NCBI GenBank assembly: GCA_025403435.1
Contig: CM046354.1
Coordinates: forward strand, 41,117,779-41,181,778
Origin: Artocarpus heterophyllus
Lineage: Eukaryota; Streptophyta; Magnoliopsida; Rosales; Moraceae
Reading direction: 5' to 3'
DNA length: 64,000 nucleotides
Positions 5,217 to 58,917 of this stretch are shown piece by piece. The notes below the pieces were generated by a model. It ran no database searches and had not been told where the DNA came from. It worked only from the letters and a program-made list of their open reading frames with translations. A program made the position numbers and the translations under genes. Numbering within the stretch: position 1 is the stretch's first letter; each line of letters begins with the position of its first letter.

Positions 5217-5290
5217 CGGCTTGCCGATCTACGTGTTCGACCTGCCGATGGGGCCTGTTCAGCTTGCCGATCAGGCTGTTCGGCCTGCCG
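5217..5290. repeat. Dyad array (4 units) in solo Copia LTR
   Basis: Units of the type TTCGGC-N2-GCCGAA, read here as CGGCYTGCCG, start at 5217, 5238, 5260 and 5281. The spacings are 21, 22 and 21 bp. The last base of the array lies 121 bp before the first base of the TATA box at 5411. Confidence 0.9.
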
Positions 5291-5410
5291 ATCAGCGAGA
5301 GATAAGATTACACGTTTTTACGCGGATCTTATTAGATATTGATCCGAACTTGATTTTGTTTTGAGTTTTTGAGACCTAATCTGATAAGGACTGACCCCAA
5401 GACCAATCGC

Positions 5411-5418
5411 TATATAAA
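5411..5418 (+). promoter_or_regulatory. TATA box of solo Copia LTR
   Basis: TATATAAA in the middle of the LTR, at the same position as in the other two well-preserved copies (44696 and 51317). It is followed by a conserved transcribed leader. Confidence 0.75.
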
Positions 5419-6293
5419 GGGAGTAAGTCTCATGAGTTACTCAGATCAATTGAGAGATTAAGAGTGATACTCTTCTGGTGAGCATCTGAAAACTCCCTGA
5501 GAGCTTTTGTTCACAAATCACGAACACTAGCTTTGGGTTCTCTCGATTGGTTGGAAGGAGAGTCACCGGTGGAAGAGCTGTACGTGTGAGCTCACACTCA
5601 CTCTGATCGTGGATAGAGAATAGCAAAGAAGACCAGTTGGTTGAGGCTTTTATGGAACGTTGCTTCTCTTTACGGGTTGCGGAGGTTCTTCTGCACACAA
5701 AGGTTAGTAAGATCTGTTTAATTTATACATATAGCATGACAAACTTGTGTTTTAGAAAATACTCTGATGTTAAAATTTTAAAATTCCCGCTGCGCACCTT
5801 ACATTGTTTTTTTTTTTTCCAACAATCATGCCCTTATATTCATTTTCATCATTATTCAAAACCCATTTACCAAGTGTTGTTATTTACATTCATTATGAAG
5901 TTCATCTCAGTCCAAGGTTCATAAAAACAACCGATAAAATTCCTTTTTTAATCAACCGTTGAAAACATTTTGATAAAAACCCTTTTCAAGGTCAAATCAT
6001 TTGAAACTGGGTTATCAAAGAAAGAGGGGTAGAAGTCCTACCTCGGTACTCGTGCCGGTGTCCTACACCGTAATCCCGGTCCGCTATATATTAGCTCCAC
6101 GGAACCACGAACGACCCTAAATACAAACTAGGTCGATCAATATCTAGTTTAAGATATTCTATGTTACTAAACCATTTCATGATGTCCTAGTATGCCATCT
6201 GTATCTTTAAATTCATTTTATAAAGTTGGGATTTCAATCGGGGTTCAAAACAATGAAAACGGATGAAAATCACAAAATATGCCCTTGTTCGAT

Positions 6294-6458
6294 CAGCCTA
6301 CCAGTCTCCCTGGTTCGGCTGGCTGAACTGTACAGTTCGGCCTGCCGGAGGACCAGGTCCATTCGGCCGAACATTCCTAGGTTCGGCCTGCCGGACGGAT
6401 GAATCCGGCCTGCCGATCCTATGAATCTGGCCTGCTGAACACAAAGTTCGGCCTGCTG
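6294..6458. repeat. Dyad array (8 units) in E1 3' LTR
   Basis: Degenerate CGGCCTGCCG cores start at 6294, 6316, 6338, 6364, 6384, 6406, 6428 and 6449. Spacings are 22, 22, 26, 20, 22, 22 and 21 bp. The unit at 6364 is a half-length CGGCCGAA form. Confidence 0.88.
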
Positions 6459-7321
6459 ATCTGAAAAATTTCCAGAAATTTAGGTCACGGGTTTTGAGTC
6501 TCCCAAAACCCAAATCTTGATTTCAACTTGTTTTTCTCAATTCTCAAACATGGAAAACACTCATAGATGATAGAAAAACACAATAGGACACTTTCGAACT
6601 CATTTAAAAAAGATTTGCACACAAAATCCAAGAAAATCTAAAAATAGAGAAAAAGAGAGAAAAATGAAAAATCTTGATTCGAATCCGTTTTTCTTCAAAC
6701 AAAGCTTAGATCCTAATTATTCTAAGTTCCTTTAACTAAAATCAAGAGTTTTCTAAGCTCGAATAAACTTAGATTTTAAAAAGGCATGAAAAATTGAAAA
6801 TTTGAAAAAGTTTAGAAATTTCAAAACTGACCTCAAATCCAAGCTTGAAATCACATTTTTGGTTGATCAATCACACTCCCGAGCCTTCAATACACCAAAA
6901 CCCAAAGCTTGAGCTTGATTGGAATTAAAATTTTGAAAGAAAAATTAGAGAGAAGGAGAGAGACCGAGAGAGAGAGTGAGATAAGCGTGGGAGAGAGAAA
7001 GAGAGTGAAAGTGAGTGAAAGAGAGAGTGAGGGAGAGATTAAATAGATAGGAATAATGGGCAGTTTTATTGTGCGAAAATCGTGTGTCGTCCATGGTTTT
7101 GTAAAACAAAACATATTTGACATTTGACACATAGTTTGTTTTAAAAACTCAAAATAACATTTTAAAACAATAAGAAATCCTTAGAAATCATTAAAATAAG
7201 AGAAACAACTTTAAACTCAAAATCTCACCAAATGATCGAATTAAGTTTAAAATATTCATTATGGCACATTAATCCATCATTTTATATTATAATATCATTA
7301 AATTAATTTCGAGGCGTCACA

Positions 7322-7333
7322 ACTCTCCACCCT
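7322..7333 (-). other. E1 polypurine tract
   Basis: On the element strand this reads AGGGTGGAGAGT immediately before the 3' LTR, matching the E3 tract at 26859-26871. It is the expected plus-strand DNA primer site. Confidence 0.8.
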
Positions 7334-7368
7334 TAAAGAAATTTCGCCCTCAAAATTTACATATCGAT

Positions 7369-10300
7369 TCAGAAACAAAACAGATGCGGATCTAGCTCCC
7401 GCATGCTTCGCTCTAATTCCCAAGTGGCTTCATCAACCCCGTGATGTTGCCACATGACCTTTACTAAGGGTATATCCTGATGGCGCAAACTAATCACTTT
7501 CCAATCGATAATTTGATTCTGCACTTCCTCGTACATCGTGTCTTCCTTAACCTACACATCGTGAAATGAAACTATCTTACCCTACTCAGGCAGACACTTC
7601 CTAAGCATCGACACGTGGAACACATCATGAACATGAGAAAGTTCAGGCGGAAGGTCGAGCCGATAAGCAACCACACCAACACGTTGAGTGATCTTGAACG
7701 GTCCAACATACCTCGGTGCAAGCTTTCCACTCACTCCGTACCACATAATACCTTTACTAGGCGATACTTTCAAGAGAACAAAATCTCCTACTGCAAATTC
7801 CAAGGGTCGACGTCTCCTATCCGTATAACTCTTCTGTCGACTCTAAGCCGCCCTCAATCGATCCTAAATTACGACAACTTTCTCGTTACTATCATGAATC
7901 TTATCTAGCCCAAGAATAACCCTGTCTTCCAGCTCTGTCCAACACACCGGTGACCTACACGGTCACCCATACAACGCCTCAAACGGTGCCATACCAATGC
8001 TTGCCTGATAGCTGTTGTTGTACGCGAATTCTGCCAGATGCAAATATTTCTTCCAATTCCCGTCGAAGTCTAACGCATAAGCATGCAACATGTCCTCGAG
8101 AATCTGAATAACCCGCTTAGACTGCCTATCGGTCTGAGGATGAAACGCCGTACTGAAGTTCAAATCTATAATTAAGGCCTCCTGAAAACTCCTCTAGTAC
8201 TTAGCATTAAACTTGGTGTCTCGATCAAATGTGATGGACAAAGGAACTCCGTGCAATCTCACTATATTCTGCAGATACAACTCCTCAAGAACTTTTCTCA
8301 AACACGTTGACCTAAATGGGATGAAATGCGTTGCTTTCATCAACATATCGACCATGACCCAAACTGCATCATGCCGCTGCTCTATCCTCGGCAAACTTGT
8401 GAGAAAATCCATCGTCACATGCTCCTATTTCCACCCTAGAATAGGAAGCGGCTGAAGCTGACCTGCAGGCTTCTGACGTTCGGCTTTCACCTGGAGACAC
8501 GTCGTACACCTGGCCACGTACTCTCGAACATCTTTCTTCATACCTCTCCACCAATATTGCCTCTTCAAATCACGATACATCTTTGTGCTCCCTGGATGAA
8601 TGGCGAACTGAGACCTATGGGCTTCGTCCATAATGGCTTTCATCACCTCTACGATTGTTGGAACTACAAGACACTCTCAAAAATACAACGATCCATCTAC
8701 ATGCACTCTCTATTCTTCAAATTGCTCCCTGTTCTGAATTCGTGTCGAAATCCCTCGTAGATGCTAGTCCTGCCACTGATTCTGTTTCACCATCTGAACA
8801 AGAGCTGGGGTCGCTTCCATATGGTACACTGAAACTCGATCATAGTCTTCATAATACTGTAGTCCATACTCGCTCATTGTCGCATCCCTGCTCTAGTCTT
8901 CAAGAGCCAAACAAGCGAGAATCCCTAAAGACTTCTTGCTAAGTGCATCCGTGACCACATTAGCTTTCCTAGGATGGTATTGCAACGCGAAATCATAATC
9001 CTCCATGTACTCCATCCATCTTCGCTATCTCAAATTAAGATCCCTCTGAGTGAATAGATACCTCAAAGTCTTATGATCAGAGAAGACCTGAAATGTCACC
9101 CCATACAAATAACATTTCTAAATCTTCAACGCATGAATCACCGCCACAATCTCCAAGTCGTGAGTAGGATAATTCTGCTCGTGAGGTCGTAGCTGTCTCA
9201 ATCCATACGCTACCACGCGTCCATGCTACATCAACACGCATCTAAGTCTGAGTCCTAAAGCATCTGTGTAAACCTCGTATAGCTCGTCACTGCTAGGAAT
9301 AACCAATACTGGGGCTGAAGTCAACCGATTCTTCAATTCCTAAAAAGCGAGCTCACATTCTTCATCCCACTCAAACCTGACGTTTTTCCTCATCAATCTT
9401 GTCAACGGCACTGCGATCTTCGAGAAATCCTTTACAAATTTCCTGTAATAACCTGCAAGACCCAAAAAGCTGTGGATTTCTGCTACATTCTTTGGTCGTT
9501 CCCATTCCACTATAGTTTCAATCTTGGACGAATCCATAGAAATACCATGCTCGGAGATGACATGACGACCTAGAAACTTAACTTCCATTAGCCAAAACTC
9601 GCACTTTTCTTTCTTGGCATACAACTGGTGCTCCCGCAGAGTCTGAAGTACGATTCTCAGATGTTGCTCATGCTCCTCCCAAGTTTTAGAATACACTAGA
9701 ATATCATCGATGAACATGATCCTCTTCCATACGAGGTCCTAAAAGCTGTCTTGGGAATATCCTCTTCCTTTATCCTAAGCTGATGGTACCCCGAGCACAA
9801 ATCAATCTTTGAGAAGTACTGCGGACCTCCCAACTGATCAAACAACTCATCGATCTTGGGCAAAGGATACTTATTCTTCACTATGACACGATTCAGCTGC
9901 CGATAATCTATACACAACTTGAGAGTCCCATCATGTTTCTTAGCAAACAAAACCGGTGCTCCCCACAGTGGCGTACTATTCTGAATATATCCCTTATCAG
10001 CAAGCTCCGAAAGTTGCTTTCTCAATTCTTTCATTTCTACCGACGCCATTCGATAAGGTGCTACTGAAATCAGTGCTGTACCTGGAAGTAGCTCAATACC
10101 AAACTCAATCTTTTGATGTGGTGGTAATCCTAGTAACTCGTCGAGGAAGACATCCCCATACTCATCAACCACTGGAATTGTTACATTTCTTTCCAAGGCA
10201 TAGGGCTCACCTCCTAGACTTGCAAGAAAAGCATGACAAACCAGATTCTGTCGCCCTCCAAGACATGACTTCATGAGACGCTCACTCATTAACCAATCAC

Positions 10301-11834
10301 CACCACCCTAGTAAGTGATCATCGTCCCCCTATCAAACACTAGGGTCACTTTTCTAAGCTAGTAGTCTACAACTGCATTGTATCTGGACAACCAGTCCAT
10401 CCTTAAGATTACATCATATGAGCTCATGGGGAGTACAATCAAATCACTTTTCAAAATCTCATCCCCAATCATTATTTTACAAGCTTTACATATACAATTT
10501 ACACATACCCGCCCCAAGGGAGAAGCTATAACTAGGGGTTCATTAAACTCTTCTATCTCTAGTCCTAAGGCATGTACAAAAGAGCTCAAATTGAGAGAAT
10601 GAGTGGCACCTGTATCAAATAATACGTGAGCTAGGGATTGGGAAACTAAGATCGTACCTTCGACAACCGCATTACTAGTCTGGGCATTTGAACCTCCTGT
10701 TGCCATCACATGAACCTGTACTAGTGCCTTTCCTTTTCCTCTACCAACATTGTTAGGTCCTAGATTATTCGACCGATACTGCTGTGACAAAGACGACTAC
10801 ACACTAGCTATACTCGATGCTCGATACTGAGGGACGTTACGCTAGAAGTTCTACGGCTGCTGCCCTTGCACTGAATATGATAGCTGTTGAGGAGAAAACT
10901 GAGGGAACTGCAACTGCAAACATTGCTGAGGTGGAGGTAGGGTCTAAGGCTAAGGCTATCGACTGGCACCTTCTTCGGTCTGACGTGTCCTGCTGTTGGC
11001 AATAATGACAATGAAAGCTGTAGGGATTGCTACGCCCACTGCTAGATGAACTGCTGCTACCACTGTTCACGCCATCCTGCTTGTTCTTTTCTAGAGTTGG
11101 ACGACTACTGTTGCTCTTCCTACCGCTCCTCTATGGCCCTCCTGATGCTTTTACTCGATCCTCACAATACAACGCATAATCATTTTTCACTGATATTGTT
11201 GACGACACAAGCTCTCCAAAACTCTTGAGTTGCAGAGCAACCACCTGTTGCCGAATAGGAGCCTTGAGCCCTTCTTGAAACTTTATACATTTTTCACGTT
11301 TCGATGTCACTACTGATGGAGAAAACCTGGCTAACTCATTAAACCTTTTCTTATACTCTCGAACTGACAAATCACCCTGCTGCAACCTATAGAACTTAGA
11401 TGCCTTTTGGTCCCTATACCCCTGCAGAAAATACCGGTCATAGAACAGCTCCTCGAACCTGTCCCAACTGATGTTATCATTGCGTTCCAAACGGTTAGCT
11501 TGCTTCCATCAAGTATTAGCGCCACCCTCGAACTTATATGCAGCAAATTTCACACGATACTCATCTGGCAAATTCCACACAATACTCATCCGGCACTCCA
11601 AGGGCATCCAAATGCTTCACAATCAAGTCTAGCCAATATTCTGCCAATTGCGAGTCCCCATTTCCATCAAAAGTCGGTATAGACACACGCCAAAATTCTT
11701 TACAATACGTATGCCGATGACTAACATCAGAATCCTCTGGTCTAGCCCTAGTTGCCATCTCCCGGAATGCAGCAAACATAGACCTCATCATTTCCAAACT
11801 CGGCGTCGGCTGTCAAACGACGTCTAGGTGTCAT
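7369..11834 (-). pseudogene. E1 gag-pol polyprotein, decayed
   Basis: The ATG at 11834 and the final stop at 7371-7369 correspond to the E3 polyprotein ends. In order: gag with the EYWLD..KHLD block (11797-11131), a poorly preserved Ser-rich/zinc-knuckle region (11080-10800), protease with FDTGATHS (around 10610), RT with YRMA and LCIDYRQLN (10289-9696), [11 protein letters not shown] and the RT thumb/RNase H start (9717-9340), RNase H remnants to about 8900, then integrase fragments: zinc-binding HRSQFAIHPGS and CTTCLQV (8646-8425), TMDF (8418), FHPQTDRQS (8163-7963), and the C-terminal SGKLAPRYVGPF (7803-7582). Many stops and frameshifts break it. The span is shorter than in E3 (4466 vs 4587 nt). 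It is not functional. Confidence 0.9.
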
Positions 11835-11924
11835 TCTCTCACTTCTGAAAACAAAATTTAGACTGTCAGTAGTATTTCATTGTCATACTTATGTGTGCAT
11901 AATTTCCAAGGTTCATAACCTTGA

Positions 11925-11936
11925 GCTCTGATACTA
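11925..11936 (-). other. E1 primer-binding site (initiator Met tRNA type)
   Basis: On the element strand TAGTATCAGAGC lies four bases from the 5' LTR end. It corresponds to the usual TGGTATCAGAGC with one G-to-A change. Confidence 0.8.
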
Positions 11937-11967
11937 TTCTGTCACGCCCCGCAGTACGGGAGGTGAC

Positions 11968-12078
11968 TGCAACGCCCCCTTACAGACGTCACAGATGTCG
12001 TTACATTCGTACATTACATACTTATTAGGAACTTTAATTGTAAACGTAGTTAAGGAAATCGTAACCAGGATCCATACA
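11968..12078 (-). repeat. E2 3' LTR remnant (terminal 111 bp)
   Basis: Matches the first 111 bp of the right-hand LTR at 14900 (TGCAACGCCCCCTTACAG...) and then passes directly into RT-coding sequence at about 12079. The junction looks like an internal deletion after insertion. Confidence 0.88.
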
Positions 12079-14686
12079 AATTTCGTGAGTGGGGCTGCTA
12101 TCTTGGAGAAGTCTTCTACGAATCTCTGATAATATCCTGCTAGACCCAAGAAGCTCCTTATTTCACTTGCATTCATCGGTTGCTTCCAGTTGAGAATAGC
12201 CTCTACTTTAACAGGATCAACCATAATCCTTTCCTTCGATATAACATGCCCCAAGAAAGACACTTATCAAGCCAGAACTCGCACTTGGAGAACTTTGTAT
12301 ATAGCTGTTGTCTTCTTAAAGTCTTCAGCATAATCCTTAAATGCTCCTCGTGTTCTTCTTGATTCTTTGAATAGACAAGAATATCATCGATAAACACAAC
12401 AACAAATTTATCGAGGAAATCCTTGAATACCTGATTCATCAAATCCATAAATGTCGCAGCTGCATTCGTTAGGCCGAAAGGCATAACCACAAATTCATAG
12501 TGACCATACCTCGATCTGAAGGCAGTTTTGGGGATATCTCCTTCTTTAATCTTCAGCTGGTGATAACTTGACCATAGATCAATCTTTGAAAACACAAATG
12601 CACCCTTGAGCTGATCAAACAAATCATCGATTCGAGGCAACGGGTACTTGTTCTTGATTGTCACATTGTTCAGCTCTCTGTAGTCAATGCAGAGTCTCAT
12701 AGATCCATCTTTCTTCTTAACAAATAGAATTGAAGCTCCCCATGGTGAGTAGCTCGGCCTGATGAAACCTTTGTCAAGTAGCTCCTTTAATTGCGTGTGA
12801 AGCTCTTTTAACTCTGCCGGGGCCATTCTGTAAGGTGCTTTTGAGATTGGGTCGGTGCTTGGAGCGAGCACAATCTTGAATTCAACTTCTCTTTCTGGCA
12901 GTAGACTTATCAGATCATCAGGAAACACTTCTGCATAATCATGAACTACAGACACATCTTCAATTCTTGTCTTTTCTTCTTAGCTTTTGTCTACAATGTT
13001 TGCCAGATAGCCCATGTAGCCACCTGCTAATAACTTCCTTGCTTTCATTGCAGATAAAAACATGTGAGGTTTCTTTCTGGACTCGCCAACATACACGAAC
13101 TTTTGATCACCTTAAGGATGGAAGATCACTCTTCGTTTTCGACATTCAATAGAAGCATTGTACTTGCTTAGGAAATTCATCCCAAGAATCATATCATAAT
13201 CATGCATGTTGATCACAATGAGGTCGACGAAAAGTTCCCTATCAAAAATCCATAGGGGTACTGTACATAGATAGTGCGTAGATAATATCACTTCCCCGGA
13301 AGGTAGTGTCGTAATGAATCCCTGTCTCATAGGCTCTAAACGAACCTCTAACTTTTTAACAAATGACGTGGATATAAAAGAATGAGTAGCACCCGTATCA
13401 AAGAGAACATAAGCATTATTAGATAAACTTGTTATCTGACCTGTGACCACATTGGAGGCTTTAGTAGCCACTTGTTCTTTCGTCATGGCATAGATTCAGG
13501 CATTCGTTAGTGGGGCTTCAAGTCTCCCTTGACTGATAAGTGGCCCTTCAAGGGAAGTTTGCATCTGATGGAGCTGGGCTTGAAGAGGAGCTCTTTGAGG
13601 GGCATTGGCATTCATCAGTTTGGGGCAGTTCTTGACAAAGTGGTCTTCACGCCAACAAATAAAGCATTGGTTTGTTCCCAAGCGACATTCCCCTGGATGC
13701 TTCTTTCCACATTTGACACATGGTTAAAACCGCCTGTTATTATTGTTGTGCTAACCATCATTATGCCTCTTGTTGTCTTGGCCCTACTGGTTTTAAGGAT
13801 TGCCTTTCCTCTTGTTATTCCTCCAGTTCTGGTTGCTGTTGTTGCTGTTGTTGTTCCTGTGTAGAGGATAGTTTTGATTGTTTGCATTATTGGCTTGTTG
13901 GCCCGATTGAGGCTGGTTCCTTCTTAGTTTGGACAAGTGGAATTCCACACTCTAGGCTCTCATGACAACCTGTTCTTGAGTCCTAGGTGGACTTGCCCCA
14001 TCAACGATAGCAGCAATTTCAGGCCTTCTGACCTTGATAAGCCTTCTGACCTTTTCATTTTCATCCATAACCATTCCTGGGCATAGGCGAGTAAGCTAGT
14101 CAAACTTCGTCACCACATCCGTAACAGACATATTTCCTTGGCGCAGATTTTTGAACTCCTCATAATATTTCCTTGTGATGTTCATGTGGAAGAACTTCGT
14201 GTTGAACTCATGAACAAAGTCTTCCCATGACATCTCTTCAACATTCTTGCTCTGTTCGATGCCATCCCACCAAATTCTAGCCTCCATGGTGAGGCAGTAT
14301 GAGGCACAGAGGACCTTCTCATTGTTTGTGAAATCCATGAGTCTTAAGGTGGCCTCAATTGTCTTCAACCATCCTTGTGTGACTAACGGGTCCTTAGAAC
14401 CCTCGAAGTCTGCTGGCTTAACCCTCTTCCATCTGACTAGAAGAGGTTCTTGATACGCCACTCTTGGTTCAGTAGCAGGCACTGGGACTTCATTAACTTG
14501 TGGCTGAGGAGGAGGAGGAGGAGGAGGCTCATCATTGCCTCGACGGTCGTCATTCTAGCCACGGGCCCTTAATTCTGCGATCTCTCTTCTTTGTTCCTCT
14601 AACTGCCTTTGCTGCTCAGCGATCATTGTCATAAGCCTTTTGTTGGTCTGGGGGCGCGTTTGCATTCTTCTGTGGCCGTCCATCAT
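12079..14686 (-). pseudogene. E2 gag-PR-RT, truncated polyprotein
   Basis: The ATG at 14686 opens a coiled-coil-like N-terminus, stopped by TAG at 14557-14555 and continuing in frame. Gag (14482-14096) has FEGSKDPLVTQGWL and the W-x2-F block, with another stop at 14098-14096. A zinc knuckle CFICWREDHFVKNC lies near 13675-13630, and protease FDTGATHSFIS near 13400. RT (12955-12203) holds [20 protein letters not shown] and [10 protein letters not shown], then a frameshift near 12262. The frame resumes as FLGHVIS...FLGLAGYY and ends at PLTK against the LTR fragment. RNase H and integrase are deleted. Confidence 0.88.
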
Positions 14687-14882
14687 TAATTCTCCTAAAA
14701 GAGTTAGGAACTTAGAAATAATCTTCTAATATGAGACAGGTTTTCACTACTAAAACATTAATCATTAAACAACTAAACCTCATTCTTATCCTTATACTTA
14801 CATCAAAACATCTAACTTTAAAACATACTTACTTGGAGGACTTGGACTAACGTGTGGCGATATGAATTGTAAACGGAAATTT

Positions 14883-14894
14883 GCTATGATACCA
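14883..14894 (-). other. E2 primer-binding site
   Basis: TGGTATCATAGC on the element strand, five bases inside the 5' LTR end. It is an initiator-Met-like PBS with one mismatch to TGGTATCAGAGC. Confidence 0.7.
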
Positions 14895-15186
14895 AAGCCT
14901 GCAACGCCCCCTTACAGACGTCACAGATGTCGTTACATTCGTATATTACATACTTATTAAAAACTTTAATTGTAAACGTAGTTAAGGAAATCGTAACTAG
15001 GATTCATACATACTTTTTTTTTATTATTATTATTTTTACAACATTCAATAATTTAATCCATACTATTAATAATTCAATTGAATATTAAATTGATCATAAA
15101 CATCCTTTAATAAAGTAAATATGCCAAATAGTAAAATCGTAACTTATGAAACATCACATCATTCAAAATTATTTGCTCTCATAGTT

Positions 15187-15374
15187 CGGCAGGCCGAATT
15201 GGAGTCTTCGGCAGGCCGAACATGATCGGCAGGCCGGAAATCGTCAACCGGCAGGCCGACAGAGGCTCTGTAAAATAGGGTTTGAAAACTTTCAAAGTTC
15301 GACAAGCCGAAAATGTGATCAGCAGGCTGAACATTCTTACATCGGCATGCTGACCAATGATGTTCGGTAGGCCG
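15187..15374. repeat. Dyad array (8 units) in E2 LTR, first array
   Basis: Cores start at 15187, 15209, 15227, 15249, then after a 51-bp gap at 15300, 15320, 15343 and 15365. The first four are perfect or near-perfect CGGCAGGCCG and the last four are degenerate. Local spacing is 18-23 bp. The plus strand reads the AG-spacer form, so the element sense reads CT. Confidence 0.88.
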
Positions 15375-17688
15375 ACAGAGCCAAAATCCTTTATTAAACT
15401 TAATTTGTAAAACAACTTCAACTTTCAAAATGCAGAAGAACAAATTCTTAAAATGATAAAATAGAATAATGAAACATAGTTCTTGGATTCTGTAAAACAC
15501 ATCATAAAAATAGGTTCAATAATTTAACCATAGTTTAAAACGTAAAACTTGCTTCATTGGCGTTCTTCCAGTTTACAATTCATCTTCCATATGCTCACAC
15601 GCCTTCCCATATCCTCCGCCTAATCCATGACTTTCTTACCCTTATCTGTAACATGGTATAAACTTGAATAAGCTAAAGCTTAGTAAGTACATATAATTCT
15701 CACAATTTAAAAACATTTCATAAACATCATCATCATCATTGTCATCATCATCATATCATAATAGTGCATTAAGCACATTTTCATCGAAACATATCTTTCA
15801 TTACATTGACCATATTAAAACTTATTCCATTTTATCTTAAGGGCCCAAGTGTTGCACCATAACATCATTGTAGGCACGCCGTCATGAGAAAAGAAGGGTA
15901 GCTAATCCTAAACCAAACATGACATCACATCATATCATAACATTGGTGTGCAACACTTATTAGGTGATACATATATACATAACTTTCATGCTTTGAAATT
16001 TGCCATAATCAAACATACATAACTTAAAATCATGAAAATCTTTCATAAGAAATCCTTTAAGGAAATCATCATAAAATCATTATAAATATCATCATGAACA
16101 TAACATCAATCCTTTTAAAACACATCATGCTGTAGGTGAGAATGTACTTACCTTAGAAGCTAGCTTACTTAACCTTATAAGAATTGGTGACGTCGCCGCG
16201 ATCTCGGTGTGCTCGTTCCTTTGTGTGTTCATGCCATTTATTTATTTAAAGATACAAAATAAAATTAATACTTATCATCACAAAATAAACATTCATTCAT
16301 ATAACATCACATATACATTCATCTCTTACAAACATGATTTATAACATGCATCCTTAACCAAGATCTTCAAAAACATAAAATCATCATTACATACACTTCA
16401 CTGACCTACATGGATCCAAGACTTAAAAACTTAACATTCACACATACTTTAGGCACCATACTTATCCAGGGTAAAGCCAATACATAAACATATTACCATG
16501 ATTTTTCTTTCGTCATAGAAATTACATTAAGTATCTAAAAACAAACCATGCATTTCAAACATGAAATCTGCTAACAATAATAAGGTAATGAGTAATCTTT
16601 TGAAAACATTTTCTAACAATTAAAACACATATATATTTTAATTTTAAAATTCATACTAACATCTTACTAATGTATATTTCAATATCATAAAATTTATTTC
16701 ATCATTAATAAAATCATTTAAACATATAAAACATTACATAAAACGAAAGTCAAAAAATTAACATTGTTAAAACAATTTCCTTGACCTAATCTCATATAAA
16801 TTCCATAACACATAATTCACTCATCAAAACATTACCAAACTTTGTAGTCCATAACATAACATATACATGAACATTCTTGCTAAATTTTGTAGCAAACAAA
16901 ACACATTTACTCCTTGAACAAAAATTACATTTTTCAAGCATCATAGCCAAACATCAATATTTTACTGTGAGTGGTAGAGGATAGAAAATTCATAACTTAA
17001 TTTAAAAAAGTCGAAATGACTTGAAACTTGGAGGAACATTGCATAACACATACATGGATAACATATAAAAAATTCAGAGTAAAACGAAATACCTAGAGAA
17101 AGTTATGGTAGTCGCATGTCTAGAGGGATTTCATTTCAAAATTAAACCAAAAACAAACCCTTACCTGAAAACGATTCTTCTCAAATTCCTTCAATTCTTC
17201 TAAAGAAAACTCAATATTTCTCAAATATTTGCAAGAGCATTTTCGAGAGAGAGGAGGAATAGAAAACGTGGAGAAGAGAAGAAGAAGAGAAGAATAAAAG
17301 AAACGTCTCAGAATGAGTGAGAGAGAGAAAGGAAAGACGTAAGAGAAAGAGAGAGAGAGCAATAATGTAAAAAAGAAAATTTCAATGCTCTCCATTATGT
17401 CCAAAATTTTCTGACTATCTGGACTAAAATTAAGGCTAGCTTCACATGGAAAGTGGAGAGGATTGAGGGAGAGTCGAATCAATTGGTCTCACTTACCATA
17501 TTTCACTTTTTTTTTAAATAGGAAACTATCTCAATTACATTCAATCAATGCCAAGTCAAACGTTTTATTTCCTTAAATGAGGAAATTAATCCATAATTAT
17601 ACCAATTAATCTAATTAAAACAAAATCAACGTAATTATCTCAGCCATAAATTTGGAGAGATTTCTGCTGACTGCTCGTCAGCTGTCAT

Positions 17689-17769
17689 CGGCCTGTTGAT
17701 TCTTCACTTCGGCCTACCAATTCCTCAAAGTTCGGCCTGCCGATTCTTGGCAGACTTTTTGGCCTACCA
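17689..17769. repeat. Dyad array (4 units) in E2 LTR, second array
   Basis: Cores CGGCCTGTTG, CGGCCTACCA, CGGCCTGCCG and TGGCCTACCA start at 17689, 17710, 17733 and 17760 (spacings 21, 23, 27). The orientation of the asymmetric spacer is opposite to the first array in the same LTR. Confidence 0.8.
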
Positions 17770-22131: not shown

Positions 22132-22134
22132 GAA

Positions 22135-45989: not shown

Positions 45990-48900
45990 AGATGGATATT
46001 ACATGAAGAAGCAGATTTGGATAATCTTGAGGATATGTTCGGAGGCCAGGCCATAACGAAGCGGCAAGGGGTGCTTCGGAAACTCTTAAACTGTAGACAG
46101 AGACCAGGGACATCTGTAAAGGAGCACAAGATGTTGGTCATGGGTTACCTCGCTGAGGCTCAAACCAATGGAGCCGACATCGATGCTGAAACTCAGATGA
46201 CTATGGTCTTTGAGACTCTGTCTAAGGAATTTATTCCGTTTAGAGCTACTTTTAATTTAAGCAATAGACGAGATATGACCTTGACAGAACTGATGAAACA
46301 GTTACAGGAGTTTGAACTGCTGATCAGGGAGTCTCCTGCTGGTGGTGAGGCCAATGTGGTAGCTGCTTCTGGTTCCAATCCTAACTTTGGGAATGGAAAG
46401 AAGCAACGGGCCAAGAGTGGGAAGTCTTCTATTCCTGCTACTACCAAGAGCAAGAAGAAGAAGAAGAAGCCAAAGAAGCTTAAGTGCTTCTTCTGTGGTA
46501 AGGTCGGGCATATAAAGAAGCATTGCAAGGACTTCCTTTCCGAGGGAGGTAGGTGTGATCTTTTATATTTAGAAACTTGTTTGGTTGAGGAATCCAGTGA
46601 CATCTGGGTCATAGATTCCGGTGCAACTAATCATGTTTGTGTTTCTCTGCAGGGATTCAAAGAAACGAGAAGTCTACTACGTGAAGACTTAACGCTTCAG
46701 ATGGGCGATGGATCCTTGGTCTCAGCGGAAGCAGTGGGAGATGTCCATCTTTATTTTGATAATTATAGGAATTTAATTTTGCGAGATTGTTTTTATGTTG
46801 CTAAATTTAAAAGGAATTTAATTTCTGTATCTTCTTTATTTATAGACTCCTACGTGGTATCTTTTAATGAAAAAGTGGTGATTCGTAAAAACAAATCTTT
46901 TATCTGTTTTGGATGGATGCAAAATAATCTATATTTTATTAAACCTAAGATGGACTTATTACTTAATGCTGAGATAAATGATAGTAACTCTAAAAGACTT
47001 AAAACTTCTTACTCTAATAAGACTTATCTTTGGCATTTGCGCCTTGGCCATATTAACCTGAATAGGATTCAAAGGTTGGTAAGGGATGGACCTTTAAGTC
47101 ACTTAAAGGTGGAATCTATACCTCAATGTGAATCTTGTTTGGAGGGTAAAATGACCAAAAGACCATACGGGTCTAAAGGCAATAGGGCCGAAGGGGTTCT
47201 AGAACTTGTGCATAGTGATGTTTGCGGATCGATGAACATCCGAGCACGAGGAGGGTATGAGTACTTCGTCACTTTTATTGACAATTACTCAAGATATGGG
47301 AATGTGTACCTAATGCACCACAAAAGCGAAACTTATAAGTTCAGGGAGTTTCGGGCTGAAGTGGAAAAGCAATTGGGTAGACCTATAAAGGCACTTCAAT
47401 CTGATTGAGGTGGGGAATACCTTTCTGATGAGTTCTTGGGACACTTGTTAGAGAATGAGATTTTATCCCATTTGACTGCGCCGGGCACTCCGCAACAGAA
47501 TGGCGTAGCGGAGAGAAGGAATAGGACTTTGTTGGACATGATTCGGTCCATGATGAGTTATTCATCATTGCCTTTATCCTTTTGGGGATATGCACTACAA
47601 ACCGCATGTTATCTTTTGAACAATGTGCCTTCAAAATCGGTCCCTAAAACTCCTCACGAGTTGTGGACAAGACGAAAGACATCCTTAAACCATATTCGCA
47701 TATGGGGATGCCCGTTTCATGTCCTGTTTAAGGATCCGAATAAGTTAGAAGCACATTCGGAAGTTTGCGTGTTTGTAGGATATCCAAAAGGGACTAAAGG
47801 GGGTTATTTTTATAACCCTAAGGAAAATAAAGTCATGGTTTCAACTAATGCAACTTTCCTTGAGGAAAGTTATATGGACGACTTTAAACCTCGAAGCAAA
47901 GTGGTGCTTGAGGAGTTAAGGGGTGATTCGTTCACTCCGAAGGTTCTGAATGAAACCATTCCGATCGGTGTAGAAAAACCAAACAAACCTGAACAACAAT
48001 CTCAGGGGCTTCGGCGTAGTGGGAGGATCGGGCGTCAACCTGAGAGGTATATGTTCAATGGGGAGGTCTTTTTGGCTGAACTGGATGAACATGACAGGCA
48101 TCCTTATACTTACGTAGAAGCTATGGAGGATGTTGATTCAAGACTCTGGACAGAGGCCATGAACATAGAGATGAAGTCTATGGAGACTAATCGGGTCTGG
48201 GAGCTTGTGGATCTTCCCAAAGGGGTAAAACCCATAGGGTGTAAGTGGATCTACAAGAGGAAAAGAGGAGTGGATGGAAAGGTCGAAACCTTTAAGGTTA
48301 GATTAGTAGCTAAGGGTTATACGCAAAAGGAAGGAATCGATTATGAGGAAACCTTTTTGCCTGTAGCCATGCTTAAGTCCATCCGGATTCTCTTGTCCAT
48401 AGCTGCCGCTCTCAACTACGAGATTTGGCAGATGGATGTCAAGACGACTTTTCTGAATGGCTATCTTGATGAGTCCATTTATATGGAACAACCAAACGGG
48501 TTCAAGGTCACGGGTCAAGAGGGTAAGGTTTGTAAGCTGCTAAAGTCTATTTATGGACTTAAGCAGGCTTCTCGTTCTTGGAACATAAGATTTGATCAAG
48601 TGATCAAGACTTGTGGGTTCTCACAAAATGTGGATGAACCATGTGTTTACAAACACATTAAGGATGGGAAGGTGGTTTTTCTACTGTAATATGTAGATGA
48701 CATTCTGCTGATTGGCAATGACGTTGGGGCGTTGTCATCGGTCAAATTATGGTTGACCAAGCAGTTTGACATGAAGGACTTAGGTGAGGCTAATTTTGTT
48801 CTCGGTATCCAGATCTTTCAGGATAGGAAGAACAAAATGATAGCTTTGTCTTAGGCTGGCTACATAGATAAAATTCTCAGGAGGTTTGCAATGTAGGATT

Positions 48901-49679
48901 CCAAGAAAGGTGGGCAACCATCTAGGTCTGGAATTACTCTTTCTAAGAAAGACTCTCCAAAGTCTTATGAAGAAAGAGAATACATGAAGAAGGTGCCTTA
49001 TGCTTTGGCAGTGGGTAGTCTCATGTATGCCATGCTTTGCACACGACCAGATTTTAGCTATGCGGTCGGGATTGTAAGTCGATTTCCGGTGGATCCAGGA
49101 CCGAACCATTGGGTTGTGGTAAAGCATATTTTCAAGTACCTGAGAAGGACTCGAGGGTATATGCTTGTGTATTAGGGTGAGGATTTAACTCCTCTAGGAT
49201 ACACTGATTCAGATTTCCAATCCTGTCTGGATTCTAGGAAATCGACTTCGGGGTTTGTGTTTACTTTGGGTGGCGGTGCCATCAGTTGGAGAAGTGCGAA
49301 GCAAGATTGCACTTCGGATTCAACGATGGAGGCCGAGTATGTGGCGGCTAGTGATGCTTCGAAAGAAGCAGTGTGGCTCCGCAAGTTCCTTGGGGATCTT
49401 GAGGTAGTTCCTAGTATGGATAAAGTGGTATCACTGTACTGTGATAATAGTGCGGCGGTAGCTAATGCTAAGGAACCAAGATTTCACAAGAAGAGTAAGC
49501 ATATTGATCGGAAGTATCATGTGATAAAGGACTTCGTTGAGGGCGGGCATGTCATGGTGTGCAAGATCACGTCAGAGGACAATTTAGCTGATCCATTTAC
49601 AAAGACACTTACTGGGAGAGTCTTCGAGAGGCATGTGGAAGCTATGGGGATACGAAATTTGCTGTATTTACTCACTTAG
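45990..49679 (+). pseudogene. Copia A gag-pol polyprotein, N-truncated, five stops
   Basis: One reading frame throughout. Counting from Met at 46017: a partial gag with MFGGQ and the FELLI helix; a zinc knuckle C157-x2-C160-x4-H165-x4-C170; protease DSGATNH (Asp200); the GAG-pre-integrase block WHLRLGHIN..CESCLEGKM; integrase Asp401, Asp463 and Glu499 (35 residues between the last two); RT with KWIYKRK and the catalytic YVDD at 48690-48701; RNase H with EAEYVAAS and the closing LADPFTK. Stops: TGA 47406, TAA 48687 (just before YVDD), TAG 48852, TAG 48894 and TAG 49173. No frameshift was seen. The N-terminal third of gag is absent. Confidence 0.92.
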
Positions 49680-49682
49680 TGC

Positions 49683-49693
49683 AAGTGGGAGAT
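49683..49693 (+). other. Copia A polypurine tract
   Basis: AAGTGGGAGAT immediately before the 3' LTR at 49694. Confidence 0.85.
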
Positions 49694-51122
49694 TGTTAGA
49701 CATGTATGCCCTAAGGAGTAAAAATGTAATACTTTTTTGGAGACATTTTTATCAATAAAGAATTTATTCATTTATATATATACCAAATCTTGCCCTCTTT
49801 ACGTTCATATTTGTTGAATGTATGATAAGCAAACAGTAGTCTGAGACTGTCAGTCTAAACCTTAAGAATTAGGCATATGATGGACTGATTATGCAGAAGA
49901 CACGATTCTTAAGGTGATGGTCTAAAACATATGATCCGCAATCGAGGGAATAAAGTTGGGCGCTTTATTCATGTAAAGATTATTATGTTGTCTATATCCC
50001 TTTTGGGAGATGGTTTGTCTTAACCATTGGAGTTGGACTCCATGAATAGAAACATTGGCACGTTGTCATAGGTGACGATGTGTTGGATCGGGACATGAAG
50101 TGAATTGATTTGGATTAATAATTCTGTCTCGGCAAATCGATTCACTTTAGACAGTCATTTGTATTGTATCTTAATCTTGAGATGAATAATGGGCCCGTTG
50201 TCTTGACTTGTGTCTTTTGATGTACCAATAGGTGACTCCCACATCTCTATAGTGGTATGCATGCCGGTACGTTGGAGGCAGCGTAGACTTGTTATTCATA
50301 GATATGGAATCCATAGCTCCTCTTTAGGAGTAATGATATCCTCTTATATGCGTTGTCCTGTAATTGGAAAACTGGAGCACTCAACCATTTGGATACATAG
50401 GTGTAACCGAATGGTATACTATCTTTGGATGGTAAGTTTTCTAATGGTGAGACAATGGAACGTAAGATAAAAATAATCGGGAAGGTAAGACAGAACTTGT
50501 CCTTAAGCCGATTATGGATGATCATATGGGGATGCGATATACTATGATATGTCATGGAGACTTAGCTACACGAGCTTCGTAATTCTATAAAGTTCGAGAG
50601 TGCAGCTCCAAGCTGTTAGTGGAGTAGCGTTGGAGTTGATAATTGTGAAATGTATATTTGGGATATTGGGTTTCATAATTATCATGAGCTTGAACTTTAT
50701 AGGTCCATTTTGGTCCCCTTTGCTAGCTCACAAAATCCTGTAACGACACGGCGTGCTTTTCCAATAATTGGTGACTTATGTCGGATTTATCAGATTGGTT
50801 TAAAATTTGTGAGAAATAAATAATTCATGTCTGTTTATCGGTTGAATTAATTTTGTAAGAAATTAGTTCAAGATAAACTTGTTGAATTATTGCGATCAGA
50901 TAATTCTTGTCTGTTTATCGGTTGATTTAATTTTGGATAAATTAGATCAAGATAAACTTGTAGAATTATTGTGAATTGATTTATTTTCTTGGAGATTATC
51001 TTGATAAAGTTTGTTTTGATCAGATAACTTCTCTATTGGGTTATTTGAATCAAAATTGAGACTTTATCCTTTAGAATCTCGGGTGGAAAATAAAAGATTC
51101 GCGGAGATTTTTCTCCGGAGTT

Positions 51123-51196
51123 CGGCCTGCCGAATGACGTGGTTGGCCTGCCGAACTGGGCTGTTCGGCCTGTCGATCAGAATGTTTAACCTACCG
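51123..51196. repeat. Dyad array (4 units) in Copia 3' LTR
   Basis: Cores start at 51123, 51144, 51166 and 51187 (spacings 21, 22, 21). The last base lies 121 bp before the TATA box at 51317. Confidence 0.88.
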
Positions 51197-51316
51197 ATCA
51201 GCGGGAGATAAGATTACGCTTTTTCATGCAGATCTTGTCAGATATTGATCCGAACTTGATTCTGTTTCGAGTTTTTGAGACCTAATCTGATACGGACTGA
51301 CCCCAGGACCAATAGC

Positions 51317-51324
51317 TATATAAA
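51317..51324 (+). promoter_or_regulatory. TATA box of Copia 3' LTR
   Basis: TATATAAA equivalent to 44696-44703. In a 3' LTR it could drive outward transcription into the right flank. Confidence 0.7.
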
Positions 51325-51716
51325 GGGAGTGAGTCTCATGATTTACTCAGATCAATTTGAGAGATTAAGAGTGATACTCTTCTAGTGAGCATCTAAAAAC
51401 TCCCTGAGAGCTTTTGTTCACAAATCACGAGCACTAGCTTTGGGTTTTCTCTATTGGTTGGAAGGAGAGTCACTGGTGGAAGAGCTGTACGTGTGAACCC
51501 ACACTCACTCCGGTTGTGGATAGAGAATAGCAAAGAAGACCAGTTGGTTGAGGCGCTTCTGGAACGTTACTTCTCTACACAGGTTGCGGAGGTTCTTCGG
51601 CACACTGAGGTTAGTAAGATCTGTCTAATTTATACATATAACATGTCAAACTTGTGTTTTGGAAATTACTCTGATGAAAAATTTTTAAAATTCCGCTGCG
51701 CACTTTGTTTACAACA

Positions 51717-54001: not shown

Positions 54002-54016
54002 TTAGACCCCCAGTTC
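54002..54016 (-). other. Tat-like polypurine tract
   Basis: On the element strand GAACTGGGGGTCTAA directly before the 3' LTR. Confidence 0.65.
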
Positions 54017-56770
54017 ACTTGGTCGGTGTTCGGCCGGGTGGATTATGCTGAGTGGGTGAGGCCGGCTCAAAGGAGGAAGGTCAAACGACACTTCGAAGCG
54101 GGGTGAGGTGAAAAGACGCGTGGATCAGACGGGGGACGCGTGTCGCATCGCGGCCGTCTACGCGCCTGTCAGGCATATTAATTGTGCCTCCTGGGTTTTC
54201 GCGCTCGAGTTTCCCGCCCAAAATGGCTATAAATAGGGCCACCCTCTTTGTAATTTGCACTTCATTTTCAGAAATTTTACGCCCGAAGAGTTTTAGCTAC
54301 CGAGCTCAAGTTATATAGTCAAGGATTGTATCTCCCGAGCTACCGAGAACCTTAGCAGGTAATTTCCCTTGAGTGAAAATGAGTGATTTGTTCGATTCCC
54401 AGAACATAGAGGTTTCCTAGTCAGACAGTAGCACGAAGAGTAGTAACTCTTCTTCTACCTAGTCCGACGCCGAAGTAGCGTCCCCAAGACGGGACGGGGC
54501 CAGCCGGCTGGAGCAAATCCTGAGGCTCGATTCCCAGACGGTACCTGAACAGGAATTTTTAAACATGCTGGACAGGCGCAGGCTCATTAGGCAGTCCAGG
54601 GAGCAAGACCCTTATGTAGGGGCGGCTACAGTGGGCTCGTCTCGAGTTCTTCCAAGGGAGAGGGCCGAGCTTCGGGCCCACGAGGATGCTCCGAGCACCT
54701 CTGGTCGGAATGCTGGGGCCCCCGTCCAAGTCGCAGGGGTTGTCACGGTTGACGTCTCCGATGAGGAGCATGCAGCCGAGGAGGCAGAGGCAGAGCAGCC
54801 GAAGATAGAGCAGGAGGTCCAGGTCACCCACGTTCGGGGTGTGACGGCATATCGGGTAAGCCGACCCGGGCAAACCTCGGCGACAGGCTATACGAGTGCT
54901 ATCACGGAGTCACGGTTAGAGAACCTACGCGCCGAGTATGGCATCTTAGACGATGTGATTCTCACCGTCCCCGGTGAGGGAGATTCACCCATAGACGCGC
55001 CGGAGGGATTCATCATGCTCTATGCCGAGTTCTTTAGGGCTGGGCTGCGTCTACCGTTGCACCGCTTTCTCCGCCGGGCACTCAACGACTTCAACATGTG
55101 CCTGGCCCAATTGAAGCCGAACAGCTATAGGTCGCTGATCGGGATGTACATTCTATGGAAGTACCATCGGAGTACCGAGATGCCGCTGGAGTCCTTCAAA
55201 CAAGTATTCAAGATGAAGAAGCTTCCTCGGTAGTCTGGCTGGTACTACTTCACCGGCTTCCGGAAGGATTTATCTTGGGCAACCCCGACTCAGACAAATT
55301 ATGGAAGTACGAGTGGTTCTACGCAGGGGGAACTTTCTAGCCCGAGCCGGTGAGGCCGTCCCCGAGGATCAGCAAGTGTCGAGGTCGTTCGAGCAGGGGC
55401 ACGTTTGGACCAAGCGTCCTTGGGCACCGACCCACATAATCAGGACAGTGGACGAGCTGTTCGAGAAGCCAAAATCGACCAGACAACAGTCCTTCCTTCT
55501 GAGGAAGGACACCTTATCCAGTTACGGCTGGTTTGGGGAGTCCAGTAGTCTTCCCCAAGCTATCCGTCCTACTCGGGCGGCCGGGCAGGTTACAATTGCT
55601 CGTCCGAGTGCCGCAGACATTCCGGGGCCAAGCACTTAACGGTCTGGTGGCCAATGAGGGAGCCTTCTACGTCCAGTGGCTCCTTCAATGCAGGGCCACC
55701 TGTAGCCGATGAGGACCTCGAGGACGTGATTAGGTTCCTATACCCATCTCGCCAACTCCGGATCGGAGGTCAGCCCAAAATTTTATTTTTAATGTCATCT
55801 TTTTTTATCCCGACCTCGCTTTGACTTTGCATTTCCTTGTGCAAAAATGACGGCACCGACCTCCCACGCCGACAGACACACCCAGATGGCAAGTTTAAGG
55901 AAGCAGAAGGGTAAGGCAGTCGACACCGGGAAAAAGCATAAGCGGACGCCGAGGCCCGAGTTTCCAACCCATACCGGGCAGGTCTCCACTTCAGTCCATG
56001 TCCCGCCACCTCCACCACAACCGACCAGAGCCTCTCTAGAGGGCACTCCAGCAGGCGAGGCTGCCAGAGGCTCGTTTGAGGACGTGCAGAGAAGGCGTCT
56101 GAACTACAGTGGCATAGTTCTGGAGCGCCTCGGAGATGCGGTTCCTCAAGATGATTTCTTCATGAACATCTGGGGGGAGGACTTCCAGAGTCTCTAGAAC
56201 ACGGCCTTCCAAGCCGCCGCCTTTGTAAGTATCCGAGCTTACCAATAGTTGGATTTCTTTTATCATGTTGCCGAGGACTGACTCCTTTTCTTGCAGGTGA
56301 GCACCGTTCTGCACATGGTGCACTCCACCGGGATTAGGGAGGTCCACAAGGAGAAGGAGATGCACAAGAAGACCTTCCTCTGGATGCAAGATTCCGATAA
56401 GAAGCTCAATGATAAGAGCATTGAGCTGGATCGAGCGAAGGAATCCCTCTCACGAGCCAAGGAGGAAGCCTGGAAGGCTAAGGTCGAGGCCCAGGAGGCA
56501 GCGAGGAGAGGCGGAGGATAAAGCTGCACGGCTTGAGGGGCAGCTCACAACCCTGCAAACGGAGCACCAGCACCTTGTTACCGAGCTCCTTGGTCGCCTG
56601 GCCGGTGCGGTCGAAGAATTTAAAACATCCCCAGAGTATGCCGATCTCTACTACCACGGCATGACAGACCTCCACGAGTACCTGATCGAGAAGCACCCCG
56701 AGGCAGCGGGATTCAACTGGTCGATCATCGTTGAGCCTGACTAAGACGATGCCGAGCAACACCGGGGTGA

Positions 56771-58917
56771 TGTAACGTCCTGAAATTTATTTAATATTAA
56801 TGTACTATAAATGATGAATTAGTGTGTCATAATTAACGTTTTAACATTAATTAGATTATTTGGTTGGATTTTGAATTTTTGGTTGTTTTGTTAAATTGAT
56901 GTGTTCAAAAGATTTCTTATTGTTTTAAAATGATGTTTTGAGTTTTAAAACACAACAATTTGTAAAATGTTAAAAATACTCTGTTTTGCAAAACCGTGGG
57001 CGGCACATAGTTTTCGCACAGTAAAACCGCCCACCGATTTTCTCTATTTATTTCCCTCTTCTCTCTCTCTCTCCTCACTCTCCCGCAACCTCTCTCTCTC
57101 TTCCTCTTGATATCTCTCGGCAGCTCTCTCTCTCTACATCTCTCTCTCAAATTTTGAAACCACATTCGAATCCAAGCTTCGGGTTAGCGAGGAGGAAGCT
57201 CGGGGACGTGATTCGGCAACCAAGAACGCGGATTGAAGCTTCGATTCGAGGTTAGATTCGAAATTTCTAAACTTTTTACAAAATTTCAATTTTGCGCATT
57301 TTTGAAATCTAGGTTTGTTTAAACTTAGAAAACCTTGTATTTGAGTTAAATGAGCTTAGAACAACTAGAATCTAAGCTTAGATTGAAGAAAAACGGATTG
57401 AATTCAAGATTTTTCATTTTTCCCCTCATTTTCTCATTTTCAGGTTTTTGAGGATTTTGAGTCAAAATCTTGTTTAAATGAGTCCAAACATGTTTTAGTA
57501 TGTTTTTCTATCAAGTATAATTGTTTGTCATGCCTGGGATTTGAGAAAAACAGGTTAGAACCAAGATTTGGATTTTGGGGATCGAGAAACCCGTGGCTGG
57601 GATTTCTAGATTTTCCCAGTTCGGCAGGCCGGAGTGATGATCGGCAGGCCGGTGTTCTTCCGACCGGCAGGCCAAACCTGGGAAATTGTTCGGCCGACAG
57701 AACTTTGCTTCCGGCAGGCCGAACTGTGCAGTTCGGCAGGCCGAAGCAGGACGTCCGGCAGGCCGACCGAGGCATAGAAAATTTTGTGATTTTTACCCGT
57801 TTTCACTGTTTTGAACCCTGATTTAAACCCCAACCTTATAGGATGATTTTAATGATACAAATGGCACACTAGGACATCATGAAATGGTTCTGTAACATAG
57901 AATGTCTCAAACTAGATATTGATCGACTTAGTTTGTATCTAGGATCGTTCGTGGTTCCGCGGAGCTAACGTATAGCGGGCCGGGATTACGGTGCGGGGCA
58001 CCGGCACGAGTATTGAGGTAGGACTTCTATTCTATTTCCTTGGTAGCCTGGTTTTGAAATGATTTGGCTTTGAAAAGGGTTTCTATCAAAATGTTTTCAA
58101 CGGTTGTTTGGAAATGGTTTTATCGGTTATATTTTATTATACCGTGATCTGAAATGAATTTCATAATAAATGTAATTGACAACACTCGGTAATTGGGTTT
58201 TGAATGATAATGATAATAAACACATGGGCATGATGCCATATCAGAGATCGGGTCGTGTAGCGATCGACATTGGGGGCAGGTCCCGAAACCCAGCTGGGCC
58301 ACTACGGTGTTGATGTCATGGTTTGCCTAGGTAAAAGTAAAATGGTGTTTTGATTTGACGAGTGGACTGTTCTGTGACAGAACGGTTCTACTCAAATTAT
58401 TTATTTATTTATTTATTTATTCAAGTTTCCTTTTGAATAACTTCTAATAATGTTATTTTTCTTTACATTAAACTATTTTATAAAACATAGTCCTATTGAG
58501 CCTTTCGCTCACGTTTTATTGTTTTAAATTTTCCCCCCCCTCTAGGTGGTTTCCCATTTAGGTTTGGAGAAGATTCTTCGAACCGAACTCCGGAGCAATA
58601 GGAGAATTTACTTATACTCTGTATTATTAATCAAGGCATGTAAGACTTTAACTTCATTTGTACCTGGACTGTAATTGTATTTATGATATTGTCAGAACCA
58701 TGTGTGTGCACAAGTTGTGGGTTGTGGAACCCATACTCGCGGTTTTTATTTAATTTTTATTACCTGCTTAATATTTATAAATCCTTTTATAAAATGTGGT
58801 GGAAAAACTCCTTATTTTTCATGTAATTTGAATCTTAAACCCTTAATTTCAATTAAATCCTCTTTTAATCAATCTAAATATTCTGCCACGTCACCTCCCG
58901 TACTCCGGGGCGTGACA
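56771..58917 (+). mobile_element. Solo LTR of the E1/E3 gypsy family inside the antisense ORF
   Basis: 2147 bp, TGTAACGTCCTG...GGGGCGTGACA, with perfect TSD GGTGA (56766-56770 and 58918-58922). It is close to the E3 LTR. It contains a seven-unit dyad array and the conserved block at 58250-58310. Confidence 0.95.
57622..57765. repeat. Dyad array (7 units) in gypsy solo LTR
   Basis: Cores start at 57622, 57642, 57665, 57691, 57712, 57734 and 57756 (spacings 20, 23, 26, 21, 22, 22). The unit at 57691 is a half form (CGGCCGACAG). Confidence 0.92.

Follow-up and report, generated by a model that had tools for sequence, protein, structure and literature searches.

Candidate enhancer-like arrays of a CGG-CCG dyad shared by gypsy and Copia retrotransposons of Artocarpus heterophyllus

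A 64,000-nucleotide stretch of the Artocarpus heterophyllus genome (GCA_025403435.1, contig CM046354.1, positions 41,117,779 to 41,181,778 of the forward strand; hereafter the window, numbered from its first letter) contains arrays of a 14-bp dyad, an inverted repeat built on CGG and CCG triplets, in three families of long terminal repeat (LTR) retrotransposons. This study found that the arrays share the dyad and a preferred AG spacer while their linkers lie near shuffle level, and that the dyads of one family changed little before insertion and decayed after it. Judging from the DNA alone, the arrays are real and probably functional, and we consider it fairly likely that they are enhancer-like DNA arrays read by a dimeric host factor. 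The window is 39% GC and holds nested LTR retrotransposons (self-comparison, LTR ends and Pfam). As the original prediction had proposed, two of the carrier families are gypsy (Ty3/gypsy, here named A and C) and the third is Copia (B), on the basis of Pfam and self-comparison.

The unit can be written as (G)WYCGGC-AG-GCCGRA(C), with the 14-bp consensus WYCGGCAGGCCGRA. Matches to TTCGGCNNGCCGAA with at most 0, 1, 2 and 3 mismatches numbered 10, 28, 54 and 84 in the window, against means of 0, 0.075, 1.07 and 12.1 (maxima 0, 2, 5 and 22) in 200 dinucleotide-preserving shuffles made in 500-bp blocks; a chance origin of the dyads is excluded. Dyads with no more than three mismatches were present at all twelve places where arrays had been predicted. 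These twelve arrays are all real, but alignment reduces them to five loci: the A LTR (six aligned copies of one array), the B LTR (three copies of one array), the 5' untranslated region (5'UTR) of B, and the start and the end of the C LTR. Element A carries 9 and 7 dyads, element B 3, 10 and 4 (three to four per LTR), and element C 4 and 8. Outside the arrays, the sole match above 12.4 bits in a matrix scan lies at 12465, inside the reverse transcriptase (RT) open reading frame (ORF) of C. A diverged relative of the B LTR (74% identical, 36905-38808) keeps only a decayed trace at 38256 (7.6 bits).

The full set comprised 80 units, including a weak one at 51185 and the end units of A5 and A6 (two of the six A LTR copies) in the register of the matrix scan, a 4-bp shift. 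A representative set took one array per locus (35 units, 30 unit distances). The spacer, written as N2 in the original prediction, is not free: AG, which reads CT on the opposite strand, occupies it in 65 of the 80 units and in 29 of the 35 representative ones. At every one of the five loci AG is the commonest spacer, although AA is equally frequent in the four-unit array of the B3 copy. Both spacer orientations do occur, as a property of whole arrays; a single CT unit, at 45835, lies inside an AG array. In the matrix scan, 10 of 79 units scored higher on the opposite strand, two of them being the end units out of register. In the representative arrays, G precedes the dyad in 25 of 35 units and C follows it in 16. 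Variation within the dyad is symmetric (Y at position 2, R at position 13), with no C at position 1 and no G at position 14.

The claim that linkers differ while the dyad is kept was borne out. Between loci, identity was 84.1% in the 10-bp core and 77.2% in the whole dyad, and linkers reached 33.1% versus 30.9% (standard deviation 0.9) after shuffling. A neutral minisatellite, that is, a functionless GC-rich tandem repeat of 21-22 bp expanded by slippage within each LTR, would agree with the gain and loss of single units (9, 7, 7 and 8 in A1 to A4; 9 and 7 in the two LTRs of one element, A1 and A2; one fewer in B1) and with an orientation set per array. Linker and core also look alike in the four-unit C array at the LTR start (U3), where the one usable linker pair agreed at 5 of 7 bases and the core at 72%, a comparison that is uninformative. 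Slippage would move linkers along with dyads, but in the four other arrays linker identity was 32-48% and core identity 80-98%, and linkers of different loci lie near shuffle level. The common 10-bp core at five loci and the contrast between changes before and after insertion (see below) would also remain unexplained, and we regard a minisatellite as quite improbable.

Family A, the best sampled, shows a signature of selection on its dyads. The target-site duplication (TSD) GGACC on both sides shows that A5 and A6 belong, as its two LTRs, to a single old, nested element. They were identical at insertion, so that a change confined to one LTR is post-insertion, while a base common to both but differing from the majority of A1 to A4 is an earlier one. 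Columns with gaps or without a three-copy majority were dropped (20 in dyads, 21 in linkers and 992 in the rest), many of them because the A5 stretch used (5825-7321) spans part of the LTR. Earlier changes affected 6 of 106 dyad columns versus 184 of the 1004 columns elsewhere, and post-insertion changes 19 of 106 versus 46 of 1004; the resulting ratios, 6:19 and 184:46, differ with a Fisher p of 2.9e-8. When the fifth A unit, at 20889, was omitted, the contrast was 2:17 versus 82:37 at G/C sites (p 1.7e-6) and 1:8 versus 15:9 at CpG sites (p 0.017). When the dyad mask was shifted to 766 overlapping placements, the after/before ratio never exceeded 1.46, against an observed 3.0. Four of the six earlier dyad changes fell at the free positions 1 and 13 of the motif, and 18 of the 19 post-insertion changes were C-to-T or G-to-A. 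This pattern indicates that the A dyads were under purifying selection while replicating and decayed by C-to-T change after insertion, in a manner that would fit dense CG/CHG methylation of silenced copies. The two LTRs of element B fit the post-insertion pattern (differences at 6 of 42 dyad positions and 70 of 1932 others); the differences between A1 and A2 (2 of 98 and 23 of 1995) point the same way but are too few to weigh.

Alternatively, the arrays might be targets of a host silencing factor and of no service to the element; the strong C-to-T decay after insertion, which fits heavy methylation, speaks for this. Replicating lineages should shed a harmful site, yet the dyads were kept, and a unit degraded in A3 to A6 is intact in the young element that carries A1 and A2. 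We give this explanation little credence. The unit concerned is the fifth A unit (20889-20902), which is perfect in A1 and A2 and half-degraded in A3 to A6; this suggests that it was regained through homogenisation among units.

Several observations weigh against a functional array read by a host protein. Some of the apparent conservation could stem from homogenisation among units, although this should act on linkers too. The selection test compares a single old element with four LTRs that represent three insertions. The early-change rate in the A dyads (0.057) was low but not the lowest among shifted placements (minimum 0.041, median 0.194), and with 7 earlier and 4 post-insertion changes in 43 linker columns the contrast between dyads and linkers was weak (p 0.05). 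In family B, dyads vary more than other LTR positions (0.143, 0.238 and 0.232 for B1-B2, B1-B3 and B2-B3, against 0.036, 0.077 and 0.073), and the 10 of 42 (B1-B3) and 13 of 56 (B2-B3) dyad changes give no signal of conservation from B alone. Linkers of different loci exceed the shuffles slightly, by about 2.4 standard deviations; part of this excess may be the preferred G ahead of each dyad. The A, B 5'UTR and C end arrays lie outside the classic upstream position, and no known plant factor could be named as a match.

The predicted spacing was confirmed: 25 of the 30 unit distances in the representative arrays are 20-23 bp, with a median of 22. The same face of the DNA is kept in only some of the arrays. 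At a 10.5-bp period, with P values calculated against a uniform distribution, phase was maintained in the B LTR (R 0.96, P 0.008), the B 5'UTR (R 0.79, P 0.0005) and the C end array (R 0.71, P 0.011), and was partly held across gaps of 39 and 51 bp. It was not kept along the A array (R 0.36, P 0.33; R 0.14 in A5 and A6), where a step of 24-26 bp places the two halves on different faces, nor clearly in the four units at the C start (R 0.61, P 0.23). The loss of phase rules out a strict same-face geometry for family A, and sites of about 21 bp packed closely together would explain the pitch as well as contacts on one face would. The proposal of a binding array in place of a minisatellite is supported by the shared dyad, the selection signature in A and the variable position and orientation of the arrays, while its strict same-face cooperativity is not supported in A.

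The arrays occupy different positions in their elements. The B LTR array lies 119-175 bp upstream of a TATA-like TATATAAAG (44696), a box present in all three B copies; no TATA[AT]A[AT] was found within 500 bp downstream of the A and C arrays. The A array is inside the LTR, about 550 bp past an apparent CT-rich leader seen by eye, and the two C arrays, placed towards opposite ends of the LTR, have opposite orientations. Such variation in position and orientation fits an enhancer-type DNA element. By eye, the LTRs of A (20425-21240) and C (15480-17165) also contain splice-donor-like sites of the CAG/GTAAG type, and similar hairpin-like stretches, TACTGAGCCTTTCGCTCACG in A and TACTAAGCTTTAGCTT in C. 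If these LTRs contain introns, as they may, the A array would lie within one.

If transcribed, the arrays might instead act as RNA, forming hairpins for RNA packaging or for small-RNA silencing, as has been proposed for the palindromes of maize Sireviruses; small RNAs over LTR palindromes in maize are described in PMC10760457 and PMC5311732. The three arrays that were folded were far more stable than dinucleotide shuffles (z -6.5, -6.45 and -5.9), but any array of palindromes folds well, so that folding does not discriminate. Changes at positions 2/13 and 1/14 are uncompensated, unlike what is expected of a stem: at positions 2 and 13, C-G occurred in 0 of 80 units, C-A in 20 and T-G in 17. 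Moreover, both orientations exist, and the B LTR array lies upstream of the TATA-like box. An RNA-level role is improbable.

In the explanation that we favour, the arrays would be transcription-control sequences of LTR retrotransposons. Each unit would be a putative double-stranded binding site, the inverted CGG...CCG triplets of which are read by a symmetric or dimeric host protein, and the pitch of about 21-22 bp would load several dimers side by side and thereby increase transcription of the element. Arrays would lengthen and shorten through slippage or recombination while selection retains the dyad. A host origin of the reader, its activating role and the action of selection via transcription are inferred. 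Zinc-finger dimers of the LBD/LOB type were considered because of the inverted CGG/CCG triplets, but nothing usable in their favour appeared among the papers listed; sites of the ARF and DREB types were likewise compared with the unit and set aside.

How unrelated elements came to share one dyad is a separate matter. The LTRs showed no homology outside the arrays, either between C and A or B (E 1e-3) or between A and B (self-comparison, E 1e-10, at least 100 bp), as expected from the prediction that they share no ancestry. The module may have had a single origin and been exchanged among gypsy and Copia elements through recombination or template switching, after which the linkers diverged. Such a capture or exchange had been predicted, and the AG spacer, commonest at every locus, fits one origin. 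When arrays were aligned against versions with shuffled linkers, the 17 pairings between loci gave z from -0.4 to 2.2. Four of them, of which three involved the B 5'UTR array, reached the 5% level (8-15 of 300 shuffles); within family A, A1 against A5 and A6 gave z 5.8 and 7.1. With the order of units permuted, the highest z between loci was 2.5, for A4 and the C end (1 of 300), and the C end and B 5'UTR arrays gave 13 of 300. The other pairings were ordinary, no flanking homology was found, and linker resemblance is weak (33.1% versus 30.9%, as above); repeated origin with a spacer read by a protein accounts for the same facts. A single origin is somewhat unlikely. It concerns origin only and is compatible with enhancer-like function. 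We also put forward, tentatively, that one host factor serves as a common entry key for unrelated superfamilies, the gypsy families and the Copia family, which is not Sirevirus-like, having independently built or exchanged the same dyad with a read AG spacer. If this is true, a single factor could turn on several retrotransposon families together.

The arrays and their carriers are listed in Table 1.

Table 1. Positions in the window of the dyad arrays, the carrier elements and their LTR copies (PBS, primer-binding site)
Feature	Positions	Strand	Remarks
A1 array, 9 dyads	20799..20988	+	AG orientation in element sense
A2 array, 7 dyads	27724..27868	+	
A3 array, 7 dyads	57620..57767	+	
A4 array, 8 dyads	33221..33389	-	
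A5 array, 8 dyads	6292..6460	-	
A6 array, 8 dyads	19187..19355	-	
B 5' LTR array (B1), 3 dyads	44521..44577	-	CT orientation in element sense
B 3' LTR array (B2), 4 dyads	51121..51198	-	fourth dyad (51185) weak
B3 LTR copy array, 4 dyads	5215..5292	-	
B 5'UTR array, 10 dyads	45623..45848	+	PBS to gag ORF; AG in sense, last unit CT
C LTR start (U3) array, 4 dyads	17687..17771	-	AG in element sense
C LTR end (3') array, 8 dyads	15185..15376	+	CT in element sense
Young element A, Ty3/gypsy	19951..29010	+	self-comparison, element ends, Pfam gag/protease/RT/RNase H/integrase
LTRs A1 and A2 of young element A	19951-22131 (2181 bp); 26872-29010 (2139 bp)	+	96.5% identical
A3, A-family LTR copy	56766-58920		self-comparison
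A4, A-family LTR copy	32055-34242		self-comparison
Old A-family element	3061..29282	-	TSD GGACC at 3056-3060 and 29283-29287
A5, LTR of old A element, split	3061-7321	-	collinearity and duplications
A6, LTR of old A element	18023-19950, 29011-29282 and short end before 11968	-	
Element B, Copia	43082..51716	+	LTRs 43082-45095 and 49694-51716, 94.5% identical; Pfam
B3, third B-family LTR copy	3774-5800 (about 3774-5824 as a break in the old A element)		self-comparison
Element C, second gypsy family	11968..18022	-	inside LTR A6; TSD GTGAC 11963-11967 / 18023-18027
Element C parts	5' LTR 14900-18022; RT ORF 12203-12979	-	

The old A element is broken up by the B3 LTR, element C and the young element A in a three-level nest, the order of which appears from collinearity and target-site duplications; the 276-bp piece that follows 29010 supplies the otherwise missing start of its 5' LTR. 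The young element A has the TSD GGAAT and an iMet-type PBS at 22135. Its Pfam domains include Ty3_capsid and SH3_Tf2-1, and the C-terminus of its integrase resembles a chromodomain, with a sub-threshold Pfam Chromo score (13.0 bits, cut-off 25.1). RVT_1 was found in A and C and RVT_2 only in B, and the RT region of C is 66-68% identical to the DNA of A. The 3' LTR of C is nearly gone, with the last ~117 bp left (11968-12083). Element B has the TSD TCTAG and a polypurine tract (PPT)-like AGTGGGAG at 49684, and its pol stop lies 14 nt from the 3' LTR. Upstream of the dyad array, the B LTRs also contain a second, unrelated tandem duplication of 77-80 bp (4914-5064, 44215-44371 and 50820-50971). 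A 638-bp repeat pair with TG...CA ends (53364-54001 and 60864-61501, 95.5% identical), probably LTRs, encloses a Transposase_28 ORF (54463-55233) and the inserted A3 copy; the matrix scan found no dyad array in this repeat family (53364-61501).

To our knowledge, the boxes of Tnt1, Tto1 and ONSEN are restricted to their families and have other sequences. The tandem activator boxes of Tnt1 and Tto1 and the heat element of ONSEN are likewise LTR arrays or inverted repeats bound by host factors (PMC2829016 for Tnt1 box I, PMC12786077 for ONSEN). A palindrome of maize Sireviruses, CACCGGACNNNGTCCGGTG, forms clusters in the LTR cis-region that are small-RNA hotspots, and among the motifs of structured regions in Helitrons of maize it is the most frequent (PMC10760457 and PMC5311732). 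It is a precedent for sharing across superfamilies, although its sequence differs from the dyad described here, and the passages of the two papers covered here do not describe it in gypsy LTRs. No earlier report of such arrays in gypsy LTRs was found among the open-licence papers listed, and four 10-mer strings gave no plant-retrotransposon title among the matches listed. In viral_contigs, two cores 8-15 bp apart occurred in 50 stretches (GC 0.46-0.72, 45 of 50 at least 0.50), none with more than four neighbouring dyads at 18-27 bp; these were judged to be chance matches without reading their genes. No relative of the A or B proteins was confirmed in the same collection.

The closest known system is that of the Sireviruses, and to call the module undescribed, as the prediction did, is too strong. 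According to Bousios et al. 2010 (PMC2829016), 13 Sireviruses carry palindromic repeated motifs upstream of TATA, 12 of them with a CGG-CCG core; they were called Sirevirus-specific, being absent from the classic Copia elements examined, and no common binding factor is named there. The likeness includes CGG-CCG palindromes in many copies per LTR, divergent flanks and, in the B LTR, a position upstream of a TATA-like box. The consensus of all five loci has the CGG-N4-CCG core of the repeated motifs, and A, B and C each have at least eight copies per element. The Citrus motif AATCCGGCTWRCCGGATT is near-identical in half-sites and two-base spacer, reading TCCGGC-N2-GCCGGA when R is G (PMC2829016). 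In the same text, env-bearing Sireviruses have extra internal copies, while the internal array found here lies in the B 5'UTR and not before env. The carriers also differ: A and C are gypsy by Pfam and lack the Ty1/copia pol of Sireviruses, and B is not Sirevirus-like, with no Sirevirus PPT AGGGGGAG (3-5 copies in a 0.5-4 kb linker). The Sirevirus motifs of PMC2829016 contrast with one motif version in two Ty3/gypsy families and a Copia family without the tested Sirevirus hallmarks.

In sum, this kind of array is known; what is new is that a Copia family outside the Sireviruses and two gypsy families carry one and the same version of it, together with the selection test. A 14-bp site with a fixed spacer would be a precise bait for the putative host factor. 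The presence of one fixed version in these families, with evidence of selection on the dyad, suggests that the motifs known from Sireviruses may belong to a more general retrotransposon control code.

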